DNA of 64,000 nucleotides from Micropruina glycogenica. Lineage in GTDB: Bacteria > Actinomycetota > Actinomycetes > Propionibacteriales > Propionibacteriaceae. Positions 3,193 to 53,839 of this stretch are shown one piece after another. Both the position numbers and the translations under genes were made by a program. The DNA lies in contig NZ_LT985188.1 of the NCBI RefSeq assembly GCF_900289045.1, positions 3,720,001 through 3,784,000 of the forward strand. Direction: 5' to 3'. A model generated the notes under the pieces. That model saw only the letters and a list, made by a program, of their open reading frames with translations, ran no database searches and was not told where the DNA came from. How positions within the stretch are numbered: position 1 is the stretch's first letter; every line of letters starts with the position of its first letter.

Positions 3193-3227
3193 GGCCGGCC
3201 GCTGGTCGAGCTTGTCGAGAGCCGGCC
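3193..3227. repeat. Dispersed palindromic repeat (GGTCGAG family), possible terminator
   Basis: It begins directly after the glpR stop codon. The 7-bp arms GGCCGGC (3193-3199) and GCCGGCC (3221-3227) flank a core GCTGGTCGAGCTTGTCGAGA. The same core recurs at 25418, 31550, 31662, 36954, 44732 and 54892. The stem could also act as an intrinsic terminator, but there is no T tract. Confidence 0.7.
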
Positions 3228-24033: not shown

Positions 24034-25104
24034 CTATGTCTTGTCAAGGGTGGTCGTGTTGAGGTGTCGGAAGATTTGGCGGGCGATGTAGCGCTTGAGG
24101 CAGCGTCGGATTCGGGGTTTGGTTTGGCCTTGCTGTTTGCGTTTCTTGACGTAGGCCTTGGTGGTTTCGTCGTGTCGCATGCGGGTGTTCGCGATGGAGT
24201 TCAGGGCTGAGTTGAGTTGTCGGTCGCCGGTGCGGTTGAGGCGATGATCCTTGGAGTTGCCCGAGGAGATCTCCAGGGGGCAGACGCCGCCGATCTTGGC
24301 GAAGCCGGCTTCGTCATGGATGCGGCCGGGGTGAGACCAGACGGCGAGCACAATGGCGGCGTTGATGGGTCCGAGGCCGGGCAGGTCGAGCAGGGTTGGT
24401 TCGAGTTCACGCACGAGGGCGTTGATGGCTTTCTCGTTGCTGTCGAGGTCGGCGTCCAGGGTGTGGATGCGGGTGGCGAGGCGGTGCGCTTCGGTGCGGG
24501 CGATCCGGGCCAGGGTGGTGTCGGTGGGCCGCTTGCGCCAGCCCGCAATGAGGCTGATGTGGACCTTGTTGATTCCCTTGCGGGCATCGATGTCGAGGTT
24601 GTGGGTGCGTAGCAGCGCGGTGAGCTGGTTCTTGGAACGGGTCCGGTCGCGTCGCATGCTGTCGCGGGCGGTGAGCAGGATCTGCAGCGCGGCACGGGTA
24701 TGGCCGGCGCGTCGGTCGGCGAGCCGTTCGCTGTCCTTGGGTAACGCGCCGCGGGCAGCGACCAGGGCATCGATGTGGTCGTTCTTGCCGCTGCCACGAG
24801 CCCGTTTCGGCGAGGGTGCGTCGACGACCCGGTAACCGCGTGCGGCGAGCAGCTCGGCTGCCTGGGCGCCGTAACTGCCGGTGCCTTCCATGCTGATCAG
24901 CACCTGGTCGACAGCTGGGTTGTCGTCAACACTGGTGCGGCGGCTGATCCAATCCACGGCCCGCAACAAGCCCGCGGCATGGGTGGGGAACTTCCCGTGG
25001 GTGATCTGGCCGCCGCTACGGGTCTCCACGATCGCGTAATGATGAGTGGCGGCGTGGGTGTCCACACCCACCACATAGGTGTAGGTATCTGCAACGATGG
25101 CCAT
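24034..25104 (-). CDS. IS110-family transposase
   Basis: A 356-aa transposase. The N-terminal RuvC-like DEDD domain includes VVGVDTHAATHHYAIVE (first Asp), SMEGTGSYG (Glu) and KNDHIDALVAARGA (late Asps). The C-terminal Transposase_20 domain has LLDLPGLGPINAAIVLAVW and the catalytic-serine region ISSGNSKDHRLNRTGDRQLNSAL. Both are intact and full length, so the element may be active. ATG 25104 is chosen because the family begins near this point; the open frame upstream to 25317 has no conserved content. Recent work shows IS110 recombinases are guided by an RNA transcribed from the upstream non-coding end. Confidence 0.92.
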   Translation of the reverse strand: MAIVADTYTYVVGVDTHAATHHYAIVETRSGGQITHGKFPTHAAGLLRAVDWISRRTSVDDNPAVDQVLISMEGTGSYGAQAAELLAARGYRVVDAPSPKRARGSGKNDHIDALVAARGALPKDSERLADRRAGHTRAALQILLTARDSMRRDRTRSKNQLTALLRTHNLDIDARKGINKVHISLIAGWRKRPTDTTLARIARTEAHRLATRIHTLDADLDSNEKAINALVRELEPTLLDLPGLGPINAAIVLAVWSHPGRIHDEAGFAKIGGVCPLEISSGNSKDHRLNRTGDRQLNSALNSIANTRMRHDETTKAYVKKRKQQGQTKPRIRRCLKRYIARQIFRHLNTTTLDKT

Positions 25105-25230
25105 CGGTGTCTGAGCCTCCTGTTTTCGGGATGTTGGGCATCGAGCCGGTCGAACCGGCGCGGCCATCCCGGGGAAAGAGTCACCCGTGGCGTTACTGTG
25201 ATCGGTCACCCCGCCAAAGCGGTGGGACGG
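25105..25230 (-). ncRNA. Candidate IS110 bridge RNA region
   Basis: The non-coding segment upstream of the IS110 transposase is where bridge RNAs of this family are encoded. Read on the minus strand it can form a GCCGGT-TCG-ACCGGC hairpin (about 25149-25165) and a second stem near CCGCTTTGGCGG. Internal target- and donor-binding loops cannot be assigned by eye. Confidence 0.35.
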
Positions 25231-25417
25231 GCTTCTATCAGGCCAACGAGTGGGCCGGGATGGTCGGCCGGTTCTCCGTGCACGAGCCGGACAGATCTCG
25301 ACCAAGACACCCCGCACAATTGCGGACGGTCAGCTTGTCGAAGGGTCACGACCCGCACACGAACAACCGGTCCCACCACCCTGCCAGCTAGCCCCAGGCC
25401 AGCCACCACCAACTCTC

Positions 25418-26197: not shown

Positions 26198-27772
26198 TCA
26201 CTGGGGTGTCGAGCCCGATGCCCGCACGAACCGAACGACCTGATCGGGTGCCAGTTGCCCCGCTTTGTCGAGCGCCGATGAGTGCAGCACCGCGATCACC
26301 GGGTAGCCGCCGGTGACTGGATGGTCGGCCAGAAACAGCACAGGCTGCCCGTCCGGCGGCACCTGGATGACACCCGCGACCATGCCCTCGCTGGACAACT
26401 CGTGGTCGATCGCGCGGGTCAATGGCCGATGGCCACGCAGCCGTAGGCCGACGCGGTTCGACTGGGGGGTGACCGTCCACGGCTGGGCGAACAGCTCGTC
26501 GACGTCGGTGAACCAGTCGTCACGCGGGCCCAGCATGACGGGTAGTTCGATCACGCCGGCGCTCAGCCGGCGGGGCCAGGGTTCGGGCTCGCCGACCGTC
26601 GACGGGCCGGCCGGTGCGGCGATCGCCAGTCCGGCGCCGGCCCTTAGGGGCGCCGGACCGATGCCCGACAGCACGTCGGATGAGCGGCTGCCCAGCACGG
26701 CCGGCACGTCGAAGCCGCCGCGAACAGCAAGGTAGGTGCGGGCGCCCCGCCCCGGGCTGATGGTCAGCGTGTCGCCGCAGTGCAGGTGCACCGGCGTGGG
26801 GTGGGTGATGGCGGTGGTGCGGCCGTCGGCGTGGGTGAGGGCGACCGACGTCCGTTCGCCCGACACGCACACCACCACGTCAGCGAGCGCGCGCACGGCA
26901 CCACCGAAGGCGAACTCGATCGCCACCGTACCGGACGGGTTGCCGACCAGCCGGTTCGCCTGGTGCAGGGCGAACCGGTCGAGGGCGCCCGAGCCGGGCA
27001 CGCCCATGGCGGCCATGCCTGGGCGTCCGTCGTCCTGCAGCAGGGCCTGTGCGCCGACGGAGACGATCTCGAGGGCCGCTGCGGGGGTCTCGACGGGCTC
27101 GACCGGGGGTGGGTCGGTGGGCGTCTCGGCGGGCTCGACCGACGGTGGTTCGCCGGCTTCGACGAAACGCACCCGATCGCCCGGCTGCAGGGCGGCCGGA
27201 GGGTCGCGGTCGAGGTTCCACATCGCTTGGTCGGTGCGGCCGATCAGTTGCCAGCCGCCGGGACTTTCGCGCGGATACACCGCCGAGAACCGGCCGGCCA
27301 GGGCCACCGATCCGGCGGCGATGCGGGTGCGTGGCGAACTGCGTCGGGGCACGTCGAAGATCGGGTCGCCTCCGGTGAGGTAGGCGAAGCCGGGGGCGAA
27401 ACCCCCGAAGGCGACCCGATAGGTGGCGGCGGTGTGCCGATCGATCACCTCGCTCTCGCTCAGGCCCAGCAGTTCGGCCACTTCGGCGAGGTCGTCGCCG
27501 TCGTAATGCACGGCAATGGTGACCAGGCGTCCGCTGGCCGCCGCTTTGGGTGCGGCGGGCAGGGATGCCAGCCGAGTTCCCAACTCGTCGGCTGTCGTGG
27601 TCAGGGGGTCGAACTTCACCAGCACGGTGCGCGCGGCCGGCACCGCCTCGACGACTCCGGGCAAGTGGGCCGCTGTGAGCGACGCGAACAGCCTCAGCGC
27701 GTCGTCGAGGTCGGGCAGTTCGACGAGCCAGGCTCGGTCGCCCATCGGCAACACCCGGCGGTCGTCGGCCAT
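26198..27772 (-). CDS. pxpBC: 5-oxoprolinase subunits B and C, fused (PxpBC)
   Basis: A 524-aa fusion. Residues 1-200 are PxpB/KipI-like (LPMGDRAWLVEL, YRVAFGGFAPGFAYL, PRRSSPRTRIAAGSVALAG). Residues about 232-524 are PxpC/KipA-like (LLQDDGRPGMAAMGVPGSGALD, GARTYLAVRGGF). With PxpA it hydrolyses 5-oxoproline to glutamate with ATP. In most bacteria B and C are separate genes. Here they are joined by a linker (about 203-229) containing SVEPAETP and PVEPVETP. The DNA of the linker (about 27085-27155) closely resembles the GGTCGAG intergenic repeat, so the fusion may have arisen through a repeat. Start overlaps the pxpA stop (TGATG). Confidence 0.9.
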   Translation of the reverse strand: MADDRRVLPMGDRAWLVELPDLDDALRLFASLTAAHLPGVVEAVPAARTVLVKFDPLTTTADELGTRLASLPAAPKAAASGRLVTIAVHYDGDDLAEVAELLGLSESEVIDRHTAATYRVAFGGFAPGFAYLTGGDPIFDVPRRSSPRTRIAAGSVALAGRFSAVYPRESPGGWQLIGRTDQAMWNLDRDPPAALQPGDRVRFVEAGEPPSVEPAETPTDPPPVEPVETPAAALEIVSVGAQALLQDDGRPGMAAMGVPGSGALDRFALHQANRLVGNPSGTVAIEFAFGGAVRALADVVVCVSGERTSVALTHADGRTTAITHPTPVHLHCGDTLTISPGRGARTYLAVRGGFDVPAVLGSRSSDVLSGIGPAPLRAGAGLAIAAPAGPSTVGEPEPWPRRLSAGVIELPVMLGPRDDWFTDVDELFAQPWTVTPQSNRVGLRLRGHRPLTRAIDHELSSEGMVAGVIQVPPDGQPVLFLADHPVTGGYPVIAVLHSSALDKAGQLAPDQVVRFVRASGSTPQ

Positions 27773-28545
27773 CAGCGCGTTGCGAAGGGTTTGACGGCCA
27801 CCCCGGCGGTCTCGAGCTTCTCGCGGACGGCCCGCGCCACGGCAACCGCACCGTCGGTGTCGCCGTGCACGCAGATCGAGTCGGGGCTGAGTTGCAGTTC
27901 GGTGCCGTCGACGGCGGTGAGCCGTCCGGTCTGCACCAGGGTGAGCATGCGGTCGGCGATCAGTGTCGGGTCGTGCAGAACGGCACCGGGTTCGCGGCGT
28001 GACACCAATCGTCCGTCAGGGGTGTAGGCGCGGTCGGCGAACGCCTCGGTCGCAGTGGTCAGCCCGGCCTCTTCGGCCAGGTCGAGTACCACCGCACCCG
28101 GCGGCCCGAGCAGCACCAGGGTGGGGTCGAGTTCGACCATGGCTCGTACGACAGCCGACGCCTGCCGCTCGTCATGCACGATTCGGTTGTAGAGGGCGCC
28201 GTGCGGTTTCACGTAGTCAACGGAGGTTCCGACGCTGCTGGCCAGGGCGCGCAGGGCCCCGATCTGGTAGATCGTCTCGGCGAACAAGTCGTCGGCCGAA
28301 ACGTCGAGGTCGCGGCGGCCGAATCCGGCGAGGTCTCGGTAGGCCACGTGGGCGCCCAGGGTGACGCCGTGGCGGGCAGCGATCTCGAGCGTGGCCCGCA
28401 TGCCGCGCGGGTCGCCCGCATGAAACCCGCAGGCGATGTTGGCGCTCGAGGTGATGGCGAGCATGGCGGCGTCGTCGCCCAGCGACCAGAGCGCGAAGCC
28501 CTCGCCGACGTCGCTGTTGAGGTCGATGCTCGGCGCCATGGTCAC
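27772..28545 (-). CDS. pxpA: 5-oxoprolinase subunit A (LamB/YcsF family)
   Basis: A 257-aa cytosolic protein with the family signature [18 protein letters not shown] at residues 8-25, then [13 protein letters not shown] and [16 protein letters not shown], and [10 protein letters not shown] in the middle. It is subunit A of the ATP-dependent PxpABC 5-oxoprolinase, which detoxifies pyroglutamate formed from glutamine and peptides. It is the first gene of a two-gene minus-strand operon with pxpBC. The length is normal for the family. Confidence 0.93.
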
Positions 28546-28772: not shown

Positions 28773-29891
28773 TCAATGCGCGGCCAGCACCTGCTCGCGC
28801 GGTTGGTAGGGGCACAGCGGGTCCGATTCGAGCGGATCGCCCGTCCACGCGAAGGCGCGGGCTCGTGAGCCACCGCACCAGCGGTTGAACTCGCAGGCCC
28901 CGCAGCGGCCCTTGAACTGCTCGGGGTCACGCAGTGCCAGCATGGTCGGGTCGCTGCGATACAGCTCGACCAGGCTGGTGTGCTTCACGTTGCCGACCGT
29001 CAACGGCAGGAAGCCCGAGGGCGTGACGTCGCCCTGATGGCTGACGAACACGATGCCGTTGCCGTCGCGAATGCCGAAGGAGCGCGCGATCGGGTGCTGT
29101 TCGATCTGGGCGCGGTCGAGACCGGCACGGGTCAGGGCATTGGCGCCGAGCCGACGGTAGTGCATGGCTTCGGTGGTCTTGATGCGCCAGGGTGCGGTGC
29201 GGGCCGTGCGCTGCGCCCACAGCAGTACCCGCTCGGCCGCCCCCGGGGTGAGTTCGGTGAGTTCGGCGCCGCGGCCGATCGAGATCAGAAAGAACAGACT
29301 CCACTGCATCAGCGTGTGGGCTTCGAGCAGGTCGTAAATGGCCGGCAGGTCGTCTGCCGTGGTGGCTGTGACCAACGTGTTCACCTGCACCGACAGACCG
29401 GAATCGGCTGCCTGATCGAGCGCCTCGATGGTGGCGTCGAAGGTGCCTTCAACTCCGCGCAGGCCGTCGTGCAGGGCGGCGCACGAGCCGTCCAGGCTGA
29501 GCGAAATGGCCTGCACACCGTCGGCGGCGAACTCGCGCATGCGCTCGGCCGTCAGCAGGGGAGTCACGGCGGGCGCCAGCGACACCCCGATGCCGCGCTG
29601 CCGGGCAGCGGCGATCAGTTCACGCAGGTCGGGTCGCATCAGCGGGTCGCCTCCGGTCATCACCACGTGCGGCAACGGGTCGCCGAACCCGGTGATGTCG
29701 TCGAGCAGAGCGATCGACTCGGCAGTGCTCAGCTCACCCGGTGCCGGGTCGGGCATGGCGGTGGCCCGGCAATGGCGGCAGGCCAGTCCGCAGGCGTTGG
29801 TGAGTTCCCAGTACACGATCATGGGCGCTCGCTGGTAGGCCCAGTTGACGGGTTTGACTGAACCGATGCTGGTGGGGTGGCCGTGGGCCAT
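28773..29891 (-). CDS. Radical SAM/SPASM protein (AhbD/NirJ-like)
   Basis: A 372-aa iron-sulphur enzyme. The radical SAM motif CGLACRHC (Cys34, Cys38, Cys41) binds the SAM-cleaving cluster. GGDPLMR follows in the GGEP position. The C-terminal SPASM domain has CGACEFNRWCGGSRARAFA and a final Cys in SDPLC, for auxiliary clusters. The closest known layouts are the haem-pathway radical SAM proteins AhbD/NirJ and an actinobacterial SPASM subfamily related to them. The opening WAYQRAPMIVYWELTNAC is typical of that subfamily. No peptide precursor gene or haem gene is adjacent, so the substrate is unknown. The gene stands alone, divergent from the 2H phosphoesterase gene. Confidence 0.87.
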   Translation of the reverse strand: MAHGHPTSIGSVKPVNWAYQRAPMIVYWELTNACGLACRHCRATAMPDPAPGELSTAESIALLDDITGFGDPLPHVVMTGGDPLMRPDLRELIAAARQRGIGVSLAPAVTPLLTAERMREFAADGVQAISLSLDGSCAALHDGLRGVEGTFDATIEALDQAADSGLSVQVNTLVTATTADDLPAIYDLLEAHTLMQWSLFFLISIGRGAELTELTPGAAERVLLWAQRTARTAPWRIKTTEAMHYRRLGANALTRAGLDRAQIEQHPIARSFGIRDGNGIVFVSHQGDVTPSGFLPLTVGNVKHTSLVELYRSDPTMLALRDPEQFKGRCGACEFNRWCGGSRARAFAWTGDPLESDPLCPYQPREQVLAAH

Positions 29892-31640: not shown

Positions 31641-31740
31641 CTAGTGAAGCGCTGATTCTTCGCTGGTCGAGCGTGTCGAGACCATTGCTCTGAGAGGGGT
31701 TTCGACACGCTCAAACCAACGGCCCGCGCGTTCATCAGCC
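31641..31740 (+). repeat. Dispersed palindromic repeat (GGTCGAG family), full copy with ends
   Basis: CTAG, then TGAAGCGCTGATTC, TTCGCTGGTCGAG CGTGTCGAGACC, a loop, GGTTTCGACACGCTC, AAACCAACGGCCC, and an end GCGTTCATCAGCC. The outer GCGCTGAT and ATCAGC blocks recall the GCGCTGATC ends of the IS5-family element at 61672, so the repeat may be a MITE-like derivative. Confidence 0.6.
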
Positions 31741-36947: not shown

Positions 36948-37105
36948 CGTCGCTGGTCGAGCTCGTCGCTGGTCGAGCTTGTCGAGACCCGTCCGCCGCC
37001 GCACAGTGGGGTGCACCCCACTCCGCTGTGACCGTGTCTCTGCACACCTGGTCATCCCGGCGAAACACCTCGTCATCCCGGCGAGCGCCGGGATCTCTCG
37101 ACGGC
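36948..37105. repeat. Cluster of two dispersed repeat families
   Basis: 36948-36990 holds one and a half copies of the CTGGTCGAGCTTGTCGAGACC repeat. 37049-37105 holds GTCATCCCGGCG twice and one CGCCGGGATCTC arm, the second family. Between them is GTGGGGTGCACCCCAC, a perfect palindrome. Confidence 0.7.
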
Positions 37106-44731: not shown

Positions 44732-44754
44732 CGCTGGTCGAGCTTGTCGAGACC
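44732..44754 (+). repeat. Dispersed palindromic repeat (GGTCGAG family), half copy
   Basis: CGCTGGTCGAGCTTGTCGAGACC lies eight bases after the acyl-CoA dehydrogenase stop. A separate small inverted repeat, CCAGATGTGGCACC / GGTGCCACCTCTGG, follows at about 44780-44816. Confidence 0.65.
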
Positions 44755-51272: not shown

Positions 51273-52112
51273 ATGACTGACCCGGGCGTGCTGGTGCTGG
51301 CCGGCACACCCATCGGCCATGCCGAAGACGCCTCGCCCGCGTTGCTCACCGCCCTCACTGAGGCCGACGTGATCGCCGCCGAAGACACCCGGCGGTTTCG
51401 CGACCTGTGCCGGCGTCTCGCCATCAACCCCACCGCCACGGTGGTGTCGTTCTTCGACGGCAACGAGGGTGGTCGGGTCGCGGCGCTCATAGATCACCTC
51501 GAAGCCGGACGCCGCGTCGTGGTCGTCTCGGACGCCGGCATGCCCGCCGTGTCAGACCCCGGTTACCGGCTGGTGGCCGCAGCCGCAGACGCCGGCATTC
51601 GGGTCACCGCGGTACCCGGGCCGTCTGCCGTGCTGACCGCGCTGGCGGTGTCGGGCCTACCCACCGACCGGTTCTGCTTCGAGGGGTTTCTGCCCCGCAA
51701 AGGTGGCGAGCGACGGGCCAGGCTCGCAGGTCTCGCCGCCGAGCCGCGCACGATGGTGTTCTTCGAGGCTCCGCATAGGCTGGCGGTCTTTCTGGCCGAC
51801 GCTGAAGCCGCCTTGGGGGCCGATCGTCGCGCGGTGGTGTGCCGCGAGTTGACCAAGACCTATGAAGAGGTGCGCCGCGGCACTCTGGCCGAGTTGCGAG
51901 GTTGGGCCGAGGGCGAGGTGCGCGGCGAACTGACCGTGGTGGTCGAGGGAGCGCAGGTATCGGGCGACCCCGAGGGCGCGCTGGCGGCCGTGCAGGCCGC
52001 GGTGGCGTCGGGTCAGCGCTTGTCGGAGGCGGTTGCCGAGGTGGCGGCGGCCCACGGTGTGCCGCGGCGTCAGCTCTACGACGCGGCATTGAAGAGTCGA
52101 GGCGAACGATGA
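51273..52112 (+). CDS. rsmI: 16S rRNA (cytidine-2'-O)-methyltransferase
   Basis: A 279-aa SAM-dependent methyltransferase that 2'-O-methylates C1402 of 16S rRNA. Family motifs are LAGTPIGHAEDASPA (glycine-rich SAM site), AAEDTRRFRDL, VVSDAGMPAVSDPGYRLV, VPGPSAVLTALAVSGLP and the late ELTKTYEEVRRG. It begins the rsmI-tatD-rsmA-ispE series and is divergent from pmt. The length is normal. Confidence 0.95.
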   Translation: MTDPGVLVLAGTPIGHAEDASPALLTALTEADVIAAEDTRRFRDLCRRLAINPTATVVSFFDGNEGGRVAALIDHLEAGRRVVVVSDAGMPAVSDPGYRLVAAAADAGIRVTAVPGPSAVLTALAVSGLPTDRFCFEGFLPRKGGERRARLAGLAAEPRTMVFFEAPHRLAVFLADAEAALGADRRAVVCRELTKTYEEVRRGTLAELRGWAEGEVRGELTVVVEGAQVSGDPEGALAAVQAAVASGQRLSEAVAEVAAAHGVPRRQLYDAALKSRGER

Positions 52113-52158
52113 GTGGCGCTGCTTCGCTGCGAGGCGAACCAACGAGCGAGGGCGGACG

Positions 52159-52998
52159 ATGAACCGCGACCTGCCGCAGCGTCCCGAACCGTTGCCGGCG
52201 CCCACCACCGACGCCCACACCCACCTGCTCAGCACGCAGGAGTTCTCGGGCCTGCCCGTCGCCGAGCTGATCGAGCGGGCCGCTGAGGTCGGCGTGCACC
52301 GGCTGGTCGAGGTCGGCTGCGACCTGCCCAGTTCACGCGGTGCGATCGAGATCGCCCAGAATCACCCAGCGGTGGTCGCCTGCGTGGCCATTCACCCCAA
52401 CGACGCCGCCCGTGCCGGCGATCGGCTGCCCGCCGAACTGGACGCCCTCGAAGCCCTCGTCGCCGACGAGCACGTCCGCGGCATCGGCGAAACCGGCCTC
52501 GACTACTACCGAACCCGTGACGACGAGGGCAAACGCCTGCAGAAGCACTCGTTCGCCGCGCATCTGGCCTGGGCCCGCGAACACGACCTGGCCGTCGTGG
52601 TTCACGACCGCGACGCCCACGCCGACATTCTCGACGTGCTCGACGCCGAGGGCGTGCCCGATCGGTTCATGATGCACTGCTTCTCTGGCGACGCCGATTT
52701 CGCGCGGCAGTGCCTCGACCGCGGCGCCTGGCTTTCGTTTCCGGGGACCGTGACCTTCAAGCCCAACCATGCGCTGCGGGAGGCGTTCGACCTGACCCCC
52801 GACGACCGGCTGCTGGTCGAGACCGACGCCCCCTACCTGACACCCGTGCCGCTGCGTGGCAGGCCCAATGCGTCGTACCTGATGCCGTGGACCGTCCGGT
52901 TTCTGGCCGAGCGCCGCGGCGCCGACCTGGCCGGCTTCTGCCGGCTGCTGGACGACAACGCGACCGCCCTGTTCGGCGGCTGGGGTGACGATGGCTGA
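52159..52998 (+). CDS. tatD: TatD-family metal-dependent DNase
   Basis: A 279-aa metallohydrolase. It has metal-binding TDAHTHL near the start, [10 protein letters not shown] (Glu ligand), [21 protein letters not shown] (His) and [12 protein letters not shown] (Asp). TatD enzymes are 3'-5' exonucleases and D-tyrosyl/DNA repair factors. It is followed by rsmA with an eight-base overlap from the preferred ATG. Its order next to rsmA and ispE is conserved in actinobacteria. Confidence 0.93.
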
Positions 52999-53839
52999 GG
53001 GCCTGCTCGACCCGCGGACGATTCGCGAACTGGCCGCCGAGCTCGATCTGCGGCCGTCCAAGCAGCGCGGGCAGAACTTCGTGCACGACGCCAACACGGT
53101 GCGCCGCATCGTGGCCGCCGCCGACCTACAACCCGACGATGTCGCCCTCGAGATCGGCCCCGGCCTCGGCTCGCTCACTCTGGGGCTGCTCGAACGGCTG
53201 GCCTGGGTGCATGCCATCGAGATCGACGACCGGCTGGCCGGGCGGCTCGTCCAAACCGTGGCCGAGCGGCTGCCCGCAGCCGCCGACCGGCTCACCGTCA
53301 CCGAGGCGGACGCCCTCACGGTCACCACCCTGCCCGATCCGCAGCCGACCGCGGTGGTGGCCAACCTGCCCTACAACGTGAGCGTGCCGGTGCTGTTGCA
53401 CGTGCTGGCCACGTTCGGCAGCGTGCGCAGCGGGCTGGTGATGGTGCAGTCGGAGGTGGCCGACCGGCTGGTTGCGCCGCCTGGGTCGAAGGTGTACGGG
53501 GTGCCGTCGGTGAAGCTGGCCTGGTACTGCAGTTCGCGGCGGGCGGGTTCGGTGCCGCCGGGGGTGTTCTGGCCGGTGCCCAACGTCGACTCGGGGCTGG
53601 TGGCGCTGCAACGTCGCGACCCGCCGGTCACCACCGCGACCCGCGAGCAGGTGTTCGCCCTGGTCGACGCGGCTTTCGCGCAGCGACGCAAGATGCTGCG
53701 CTCGGCCCTGGTCGGCGTGTACGGGTCGTCCGCCCGTGCGTCCGAGGCCCTGCTCGCGGCCGGCATCGACCCGACCGCGAGGGGCGAGGTGCTCGACGTC
53801 GCCGACTTCGCCCGATTGGCAGCCATCGAACCCGTGTGA
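52991..53839 (+). CDS. rsmA: 16S rRNA (adenine-N6,N6)-dimethyltransferase
   Basis: A 282-aa methyltransferase, also called KsgA, that dimethylates A1518 and A1519 in the 16S 3' hairpin. It has [18 protein letters not shown], the SAM motif [22 protein letters not shown], and the catalytic [14 protein letters not shown]-terminal helical domain with [12 protein letters not shown] follows. ATG 52991 (MAEGLLDP) is preferred; GTG 52985 is an alternative. It overlaps tatD. Confidence 0.95.

Follow-up and report, generated by a model that had tools for sequence, protein, structure and literature searches.

In the window analysed here, a stretch of 64,000 nucleotides of the Micropruina glycogenica genome (G000), a single gene on the minus strand, pxpBC (26198..27772), is predicted to encode fused 5-oxoprolinase subunits PxpB and PxpC, and the DNA that joins the two parts carries a repeat that is dispersed through the genome. 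This arrangement raises the question whether the repeat, located at a former gene boundary, merged two genes into one, as proposed in the preliminary description, or was inserted into the linker of a protein that was already fused.

The fused gene and the repeat in its linker

The 524 aa product of pxpBC contains the Pfam domains CT_C_D (PxpB) and CT_A_B (PxpC) within a single ORF that adjoins its upstream neighbour pxpA (27772..28545, minus strand; identified from ORF coordinates and NCBIfam PxpA models), the pxpA stop codon and the pxpBC start having one base in common. Among the NCBIfam models, TIGR00370 (PxpB) matches residues 36-204 with a score below its cut-off, TIGR00724 matches from residue 233 with a score above the curated cut-off, and NF045499 (PxpC equivalog) matches with a score below its cut-off. 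The PxpC models start at residues 233-234, and alignment boundaries together with an AlphaFold model (ten sequences; mean pLDDT 78.6) place the linker at residues 206-232 (AGEPPSVEPAETPTDPPPVEPVETPAA; codons 27077..27157, minus strand). In this model, pLDDT is below 50 at residues 210-229, the repeat-coded part of the linker, and also at residues 187-193 and 358-371 and at the C-terminus; the linker is thus modelled with low confidence and probably disordered. The pxp genes are flanked by two ORFs, one on each side (24034-25317 and 28773-29891), which we take to encode an IS110-like transposase and a radical SAM/SPASM-like protein, respectively. An Rfam search of the pxp locus gave a single match, to a microRNA, that was below the threshold. 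The same two domains in the same order are found in many actinobacterial fusions and in TTHA0988 (PDB 3oep), a natural PxpB-PxpC fusion with a solved structure (494-residue single chain), and pxpA, pxpB and pxpC of C. glutamicum are described as three genes in the available text of PMC13274462.

The repeat is present in the linker twice, as established by sequence match. An exact copy of GTCGAGCNNGTCGAGAC (27087..27103, minus strand), which reads GTCGAGCCCGTCGAGAC, codes for VEPVETP, and a copy with one mismatch (27123..27139, minus strand), which reads GTCGAGCCCGCCGAGAC, codes for VEPAETP; the two copies have the same orientation (head to tail) and a spacing of 36 nt. Thus, the presence of a dispersed repeat in the joining DNA, read as VEPVETP, holds as originally described, but the copy number is two rather than one. 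Exact GTCGAGCNNGTCGAGAC occurs 206 times in the single-contig genome of 3.84 Mb (100 forward, 106 reverse), and the reversed control does not occur at all. By simple proportion, 0.004 copies are expected per 81-nt stretch, and more than that in a constraint-free linker because most copies are intergenic. In the window, copies outside called genes include three exact ones on the plus strand (31666..31682, 36972..36988 and 44737..44753) and one with a single mismatch (3205..3221, plus strand).

An acidic, proline-rich linker could have come to resemble the repeat by chance in GC-rich DNA, and P, A, E and T indeed abound in other linkers of the family that have no demonstrated repeat; furthermore, when compared with the rest of the window only, the best linker 17-mer has 5 near matches, a modest excess over the flanks, which have 1 and 2. 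Such convergence is nevertheless very unlikely given that 17 bases match in full at one site and with a single mismatch at the other, and that the sequence has 206 exact copies against none for the control. We rejected it also on the window counts: with up to three mismatches, the linker 17-mer matches the window 12 times, compared with 1.14 times on average in shuffles (sd 1.02).

The dispersed repeat family

To place the repeat relative to genes, we used 367 kb of the genome (82% coding), which consists of the window and stretches picked around listed repeat copies and so is not a random sample, with gene calls from an in-house codon-usage script. Copies with at most one mismatch number 148 in this sample, 135 of them intergenic, 12 genic and 1 at a gene edge. 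The consensus of the intergenic copies is CCGcTGGTCGAGCTTGTCGAGACCcc, and the core of the repeat, GGTC-GAGCNNGTCGA-GACC, is 19 nt long and free of stop codons in all six frames. Genic copies encode peptides of the VELVET, LDKLD or VSTSST types. Two of the 12 genic matches, both with one mismatch, look like chance: one lies in a TatD-like gene (position 52628 of the window), the other in L174. The ten or so others indicate that pxpBC is not the only gene with such an insertion.

In-frame copies of the same repeat are found, for example, in the genes at G000:C1:1577502-1579529 (L123), 51797-53653 (L157) and 2848409-2849491 (L125), which presumably encode a helicase-like protein, a peptidase-like protein and an ABC ATPase-like protein, respectively. 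Another gene (G000:C1:1750639-1751988; L179, L256), which we take to be HemL-like from its translation, contains an insert of about 30 residues (SAVETPPLVETPPLVELVETTAPAPKASTGSPN) that is encoded by the repeat. A shorter insert, SSVERVET, is present at the same site in G004, the insert is absent in G001 and G003, and the G002 match to the protein also skips this stretch; the HemL-like gene therefore carries an in-frame insertion in the manner of the Rickettsia palindromic elements considered below.

The repeat shares with REPs the presence of many dispersed, mainly intergenic copies but lacks their stable palindromic hairpin, even though its stem changes are matched (see below). On its own, a unit can form no more than a 4-bp stem, GGTC/GACC, and a loop of 11 nt. 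For 60 intergenic copies taken together with their flanks, folding is hardly more stable than for mononucleotide shuffles (mean z -0.5), and of 46 pairs of neighbours at most 150 nt apart, 42 have the same orientation. The weak stem and the same-way neighbours indicate that the repeat is not a typical REP. The linker was also described earlier as having the same form as an intergenic palindrome; it does contain the same dispersed, mainly intergenic repeat, but the palindrome is weak.

The only Y1_Tnp match in the genome is at 1635058-1635384. The corresponding RAYT-like gene (G000:C1:1634800-1636129, L108) is flanked by copies of a different family, GGGGACGGTTC(C/T), four before and eight inverted after the gene in 23-nt steps, and the nearest copies of the linker repeat family are about 2 kb away; no transposase in this genome could be linked to the GTCGAGCNNGTCGAGAC repeat. 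A classical REP with a RAYT partner was rejected for this repeat on account of the weak fold and of the lone Y1 gene being bracketed by another family, and we file the repeat as an orphan dispersed repeat. A further sequence, GGGGACGGTTCC, has 153 exact copies in the same genome.

Age of the fusion relative to the repeat

Matches were obtained in 82 of 147 genomes, and among the matches listed, 94 pxpB/pxpC junctions were examined (50 fused and 44 separate, including a few duplicates), with G018, G039, G071, G094, G103 and G117 among the genomes left out. The alignments were built without L015, L020, L021, L074, L089 and L093 (weak PxpB or PxpC matches). The 87-locus IQ-TREE omits the duplicates L016, L018, L019 and L035, the near-copy L030 and the short L069 and L075; the 86-locus quick tree additionally omits L014, L017, L039, L040 and L102 (long branches) and L129 and L139 (duplicates).

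In 36 of the 44 separate loci (three being duplicates), the pxpC start codon lies 4 nt inside the pxpB stop, so there is usually no intergenic space for a repeat. Exceptions are L098 (460 nt) and L068. In the former locus (G066:C22), where 460 nt separate the homologous parts of pxpB and pxpC, the start of the spacer resembles an inverted repeat by eye. In G041:C1 (L104), tandem CCTGTGGACCCC-like units are located at the pxpC start, right after the overlap with pxpB.

The fused or separate state changes 10 times on the 87-locus tree, at least 6 of these changes being forced by well-supported branches. PxpBC of G000 is nested in a clade of 23 fused proteins (support 99/99; IQ-TREE, 87 loci). 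Its sister group consists of the fused proteins of G021 and G043 (99/85 in the IQ-TREE; SH-aLRT 90 in the quick tree), which are its nearest relatives at 59-62% identity. A scan of the G021 and G043 linkers detected none of the five repeat motifs that occur in linkers of the family. The G043 genome contains no exact copy of the GTCGAGCNNGTCGAGAC repeat; in G021, there are two exact copies, both far from pxpBC, while the CGACAAGCTCAGGGA family has 53 copies in this genome but is missing from the pxpBC linker. The location of the gene within a fused clade and the fused, repeat-free sisters indicate that the fusion came first and that the repeat is a secondary insertion.

Thus, the comparison of junctions in relatives, which had been set beforehand as the test of a repeat-made fusion, turned out against it: the fused relatives G021 and G043 have unrelated, repeat-free linkers. 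In favour of a boundary repeat that merged two genes in this lineage, repeat and fusion occur together in this gene and at 7 further fused loci of the family, and in G101 (see below) the junction consists entirely of repeat and the sister species is unfused. The placement of the gene deep within a fused clade and the motif-free linkers of its sisters argue against this possibility, as does a clade of four genes of a second type that contain three different motifs, at most one of which can be ancestral. We rejected the repeat as the cause of the pxpBC fusion in G000 and consider such an origin scarcely credible.

We conclude that a dispersed repeat very probably landed twice in a PxpB-PxpC linker that was already fused and tolerant of inserts, the fusion being older than the repeat. 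The linker would be a site where a flexible translated insert is harmless, and a short, mostly intergenic repeat open in six frames would have inserted there twice, head to tail, to be read as VEPxETP. The copies presumably spread by a mobile or copying process, and the linker would tolerate them through its flexibility, with the protein still functional. Compared with G021 and G043, the pxpBC linker contains an in-frame insertion that is missing in these orthologues. In addition to the two linker copies, the dispersed family to which they belong, the position of the linker and the greater age of the fusion, other repeats are observed in the linkers of relatives, and insertion is further supported by the differing frames and orientations in which linker repeats of this same family are read (VEPVET, LDKLD and VSTGST). 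The insertion event itself is not captured in this comparison because the nearest repeat-free relative is only 62% identical.

Repeats in the linkers of relatives

Dispersed repeats are found in the PxpB-PxpC linker of 8 of the 39 fused loci of the family, with five motifs in several frames; for these 8 loci, the repeat was established by copy number, and of the remaining loci, 8 were sampled by a 17-mer test and 23 were covered by a motif scan only. In G004 and G003, the linker contains the same repeat as in G000 but in the opposite orientation and in other frames, read as LDKLD in G004 and VSTGST in G003; the G000-type repeat has 271 and 11 exact copies in these two genomes, respectively. 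The other linkers contain GGGGACGGTTCC arms in G001 (49 genome copies, control 0), CATCCCGGCGAACGCCGGGAC in G005 (only 4 genome copies, control 0), CGACAAGCTCAGGGA in G101 (85 genome copies, control 0), CGACAAGCTCAGGGA twice in G059 (only 4 copies in the genome, two being these) and GAGCGAGTCGAAG in G019 (63 genome copies, control 2). The G005 and G059 cases are weaker because the motifs are low-copy. In total, the five motifs match at 14 places in the fused linkers, which amount to 5,136 nt, and nowhere in the PxpB/PxpC domains, which amount to 130,146 nt. The linker count is biased because the motifs were picked from linkers, but the domain zero is not; one of the 14 matches (L010, at the edge, with one mismatch) looks like chance. 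The four fused genes that represent a second type of the gene in the same genus (G003, G001, G004 and G005; support 100/99) contain three different motifs, which requires repeated arrivals.

None of the five motifs is present in the remaining 31 of the 39 fused linkers, and in this respect most of the fusions examined differ from the gene analysed here. This number includes L011 (G002), which was counted as fused without a demonstrated repeat and has N letters in its linker. The L011 locus (G002:C1:3281355-3282848) encodes a fused pxpBC with a very short linker. An exact k-mer test for other dispersed linker repeats had no power, even on the G000 linker. In the 17-mer test with 2 mismatches in 100 kb of each of eight genomes, linker maxima were 1-4 and flank maxima 1-5, with the linker above the flanks by one in G016 and G009; the G000 linker reached 13, in a sample with two stretches picked for repeats. 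With 15-mers, one mismatch and no separation, the G000 linker reached 4 (1 in the window alone) and the others 0-4. The 17-mer test is weak evidence of absence in the other linkers and would miss low-copy repeats.

The role of a repeat as the agent of fusion, which fails for the G000 gene, looks real in one relative, G101. A search of 30 genomes from the genus of G101 gave matches in 10. In one of these relatives, G152, pxpB and pxpC are separate, overlap at ATGA and meet at GCGGTGCCATGAGC, and both domains are 82-83% identical to those of G101. The G101 junction consists of VAVP codons followed by 132 nt of repeat and then by GTGAAGGCCCTGGAG, with GTG in place of the pxpC start. The two junctions were compared directly in sequence (the MAFFT DNA alignment misplaced the insert) and amount to 147 and 14 nt, a net gain of 133 nt in G101, that is, a multiple of three plus one; a +1 gain is required for merging frames that overlap at ATGA and is expected of any fusion, so that this number is a consistency check only. 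The 132-nt insert is a hairpin that folds to -95 kcal/mol, and it matches all 20 of the sampled G101 repeat sites, which were chosen by the core, with matches as long as 99 nt (83%) and 119 nt (77%). In the 86-locus tree, G101 and G152 are sisters (support 100) among the separate pairs of G121, G136, G151, G153 and G156. Judged from these sequences, the G101 pxpBC is probably a fusion made by a repeat, with the caveats that it comes from one genome in draft contigs and that the repeat may postdate a fusion of another cause. In the young-looking fusions of G016 and G093, which lie beside separate pairs in the tree, no repeat motif was seen by motif scan or 17-mer test; accordingly, fusion does not require a repeat. 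In G059 and G019, the genes are fused, have separate-gene neighbours and contain repeats, but different ones.

The repeats of G000, G021 and G101 have a common loop, TCGACNNGCTC, with matched stem changes. Among 205 cores in G000, the stems around this loop are GGTC:GACC in 87, GGTT:AACC in 12 and GATC:GATC in 5, and unmatched stems are found as well, e.g., AGTC with GACC 7 times. In G021, CGTT:AACG (15) and CCCT:AGGG (4) were observed among 36 cores in 100 kb, and in G101, CCCT:AGGG (28) and GGCT:AGCC (4) among 42 cores in 20 short stretches chosen for holding the motif. In G016, G093, G040, G038, G043, G009 and G133, the core occurs 6-17 times per 100 kb, and no genome shows more than one paired stem. 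Paired changes beside a fixed loop suggest a single superfamily that might be recognised as a hairpin. The five linker motifs represent at most four unrelated families because those of G000 and G101 have the loop in common. No publication on a superfamily with the TCGACNNGCTC loop was found in a literature search of titles and abstract openings that covered few subscription papers.

The matched changes of the 4-bp stem around a constant loop in these three genomes could also mean that the repeat is maintained because it acts as RNA or DNA, for instance as an mRNA hairpin or a protein binding site, with the peptide as a by-product. This possibility is compatible with insertion into a fused linker but appears rather unlikely: the hairpin of the unit is weak (about -4 kcal/mol), folding is hardly above that of shuffles, and, relative to the gene, the repeat is on one strand in G000 and on the other in G004/G003.

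Secondary insertion is the preferred explanation for G000; in other lineages, of which G101 is the clearest, the fusion itself was probably created by a repeat that lay where the two genes overlap by 4 nt. A stop-free insert of suitable length at the ATGA overlap would remove the stop of the first gene and enter the frame of the second one; an existing linker would then accumulate additional repeats of various kinds. We tentatively propose, as one possible joint scenario in which we place somewhat less than even confidence, that repeats serve as ready-made bridges which turn overlapping operon genes into one protein, in a single step in G101 and perhaps also in G059/G019 and in the second gene type of the same genus, that such linkers then gather other repeats, and that the repeats of G000, G021 and G101 form one superfamily with a fixed loop and exchangeable stems.

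Repeats within bacterial genes are known. Going by the available descriptions, Rickettsia palindromic elements, which lie within protein-coding genes (Ogata et al., 2000, as cited in PMC2229807 and PMC3733652), resemble the present repeat in being short, dispersed, in frame in genes and translated; the present case belongs to another phylum and combines a weak hairpin with several motifs in one linker. The GTAG/CGTC REPs are likewise mostly intergenic with some genic copies, including approximately the same recB site in two Xanthomonas species, but bridging of two genes is not described in the accessible part of that source (PMC3733652), and the repeat analysed here is weak-stemmed and has no RAYT beside it. 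In the MITE-ORF fusions, a proposed source of new proteins, small repeats are described as joined in frame to ORFs (PMC2229807), whereas here the repeat is at the join of two conserved enzyme subunits. Insertions of QMITEs, also small repeats, in bacterial genes are described as well (PMC5896051). In the same kind of search, covering titles and abstract openings and few subscription papers, no publication was found on this repeat or on repeats that fuse adjacent genes. A single linker with several motifs and a young fusion filled with a repeat appear to be new.

The origin of bacterial multidomain proteins is usually inferred long afterwards. An unfused sister with 82-83% identity, together with recognisable joining DNA, would provide a concrete route, namely a dispersed repeat that crosses a 4-nt gene overlap. 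With five repeat motifs in the same linker, pxpBC offers a natural test bench for tolerated linker inserts, and junk-like repeats may build new proteins.
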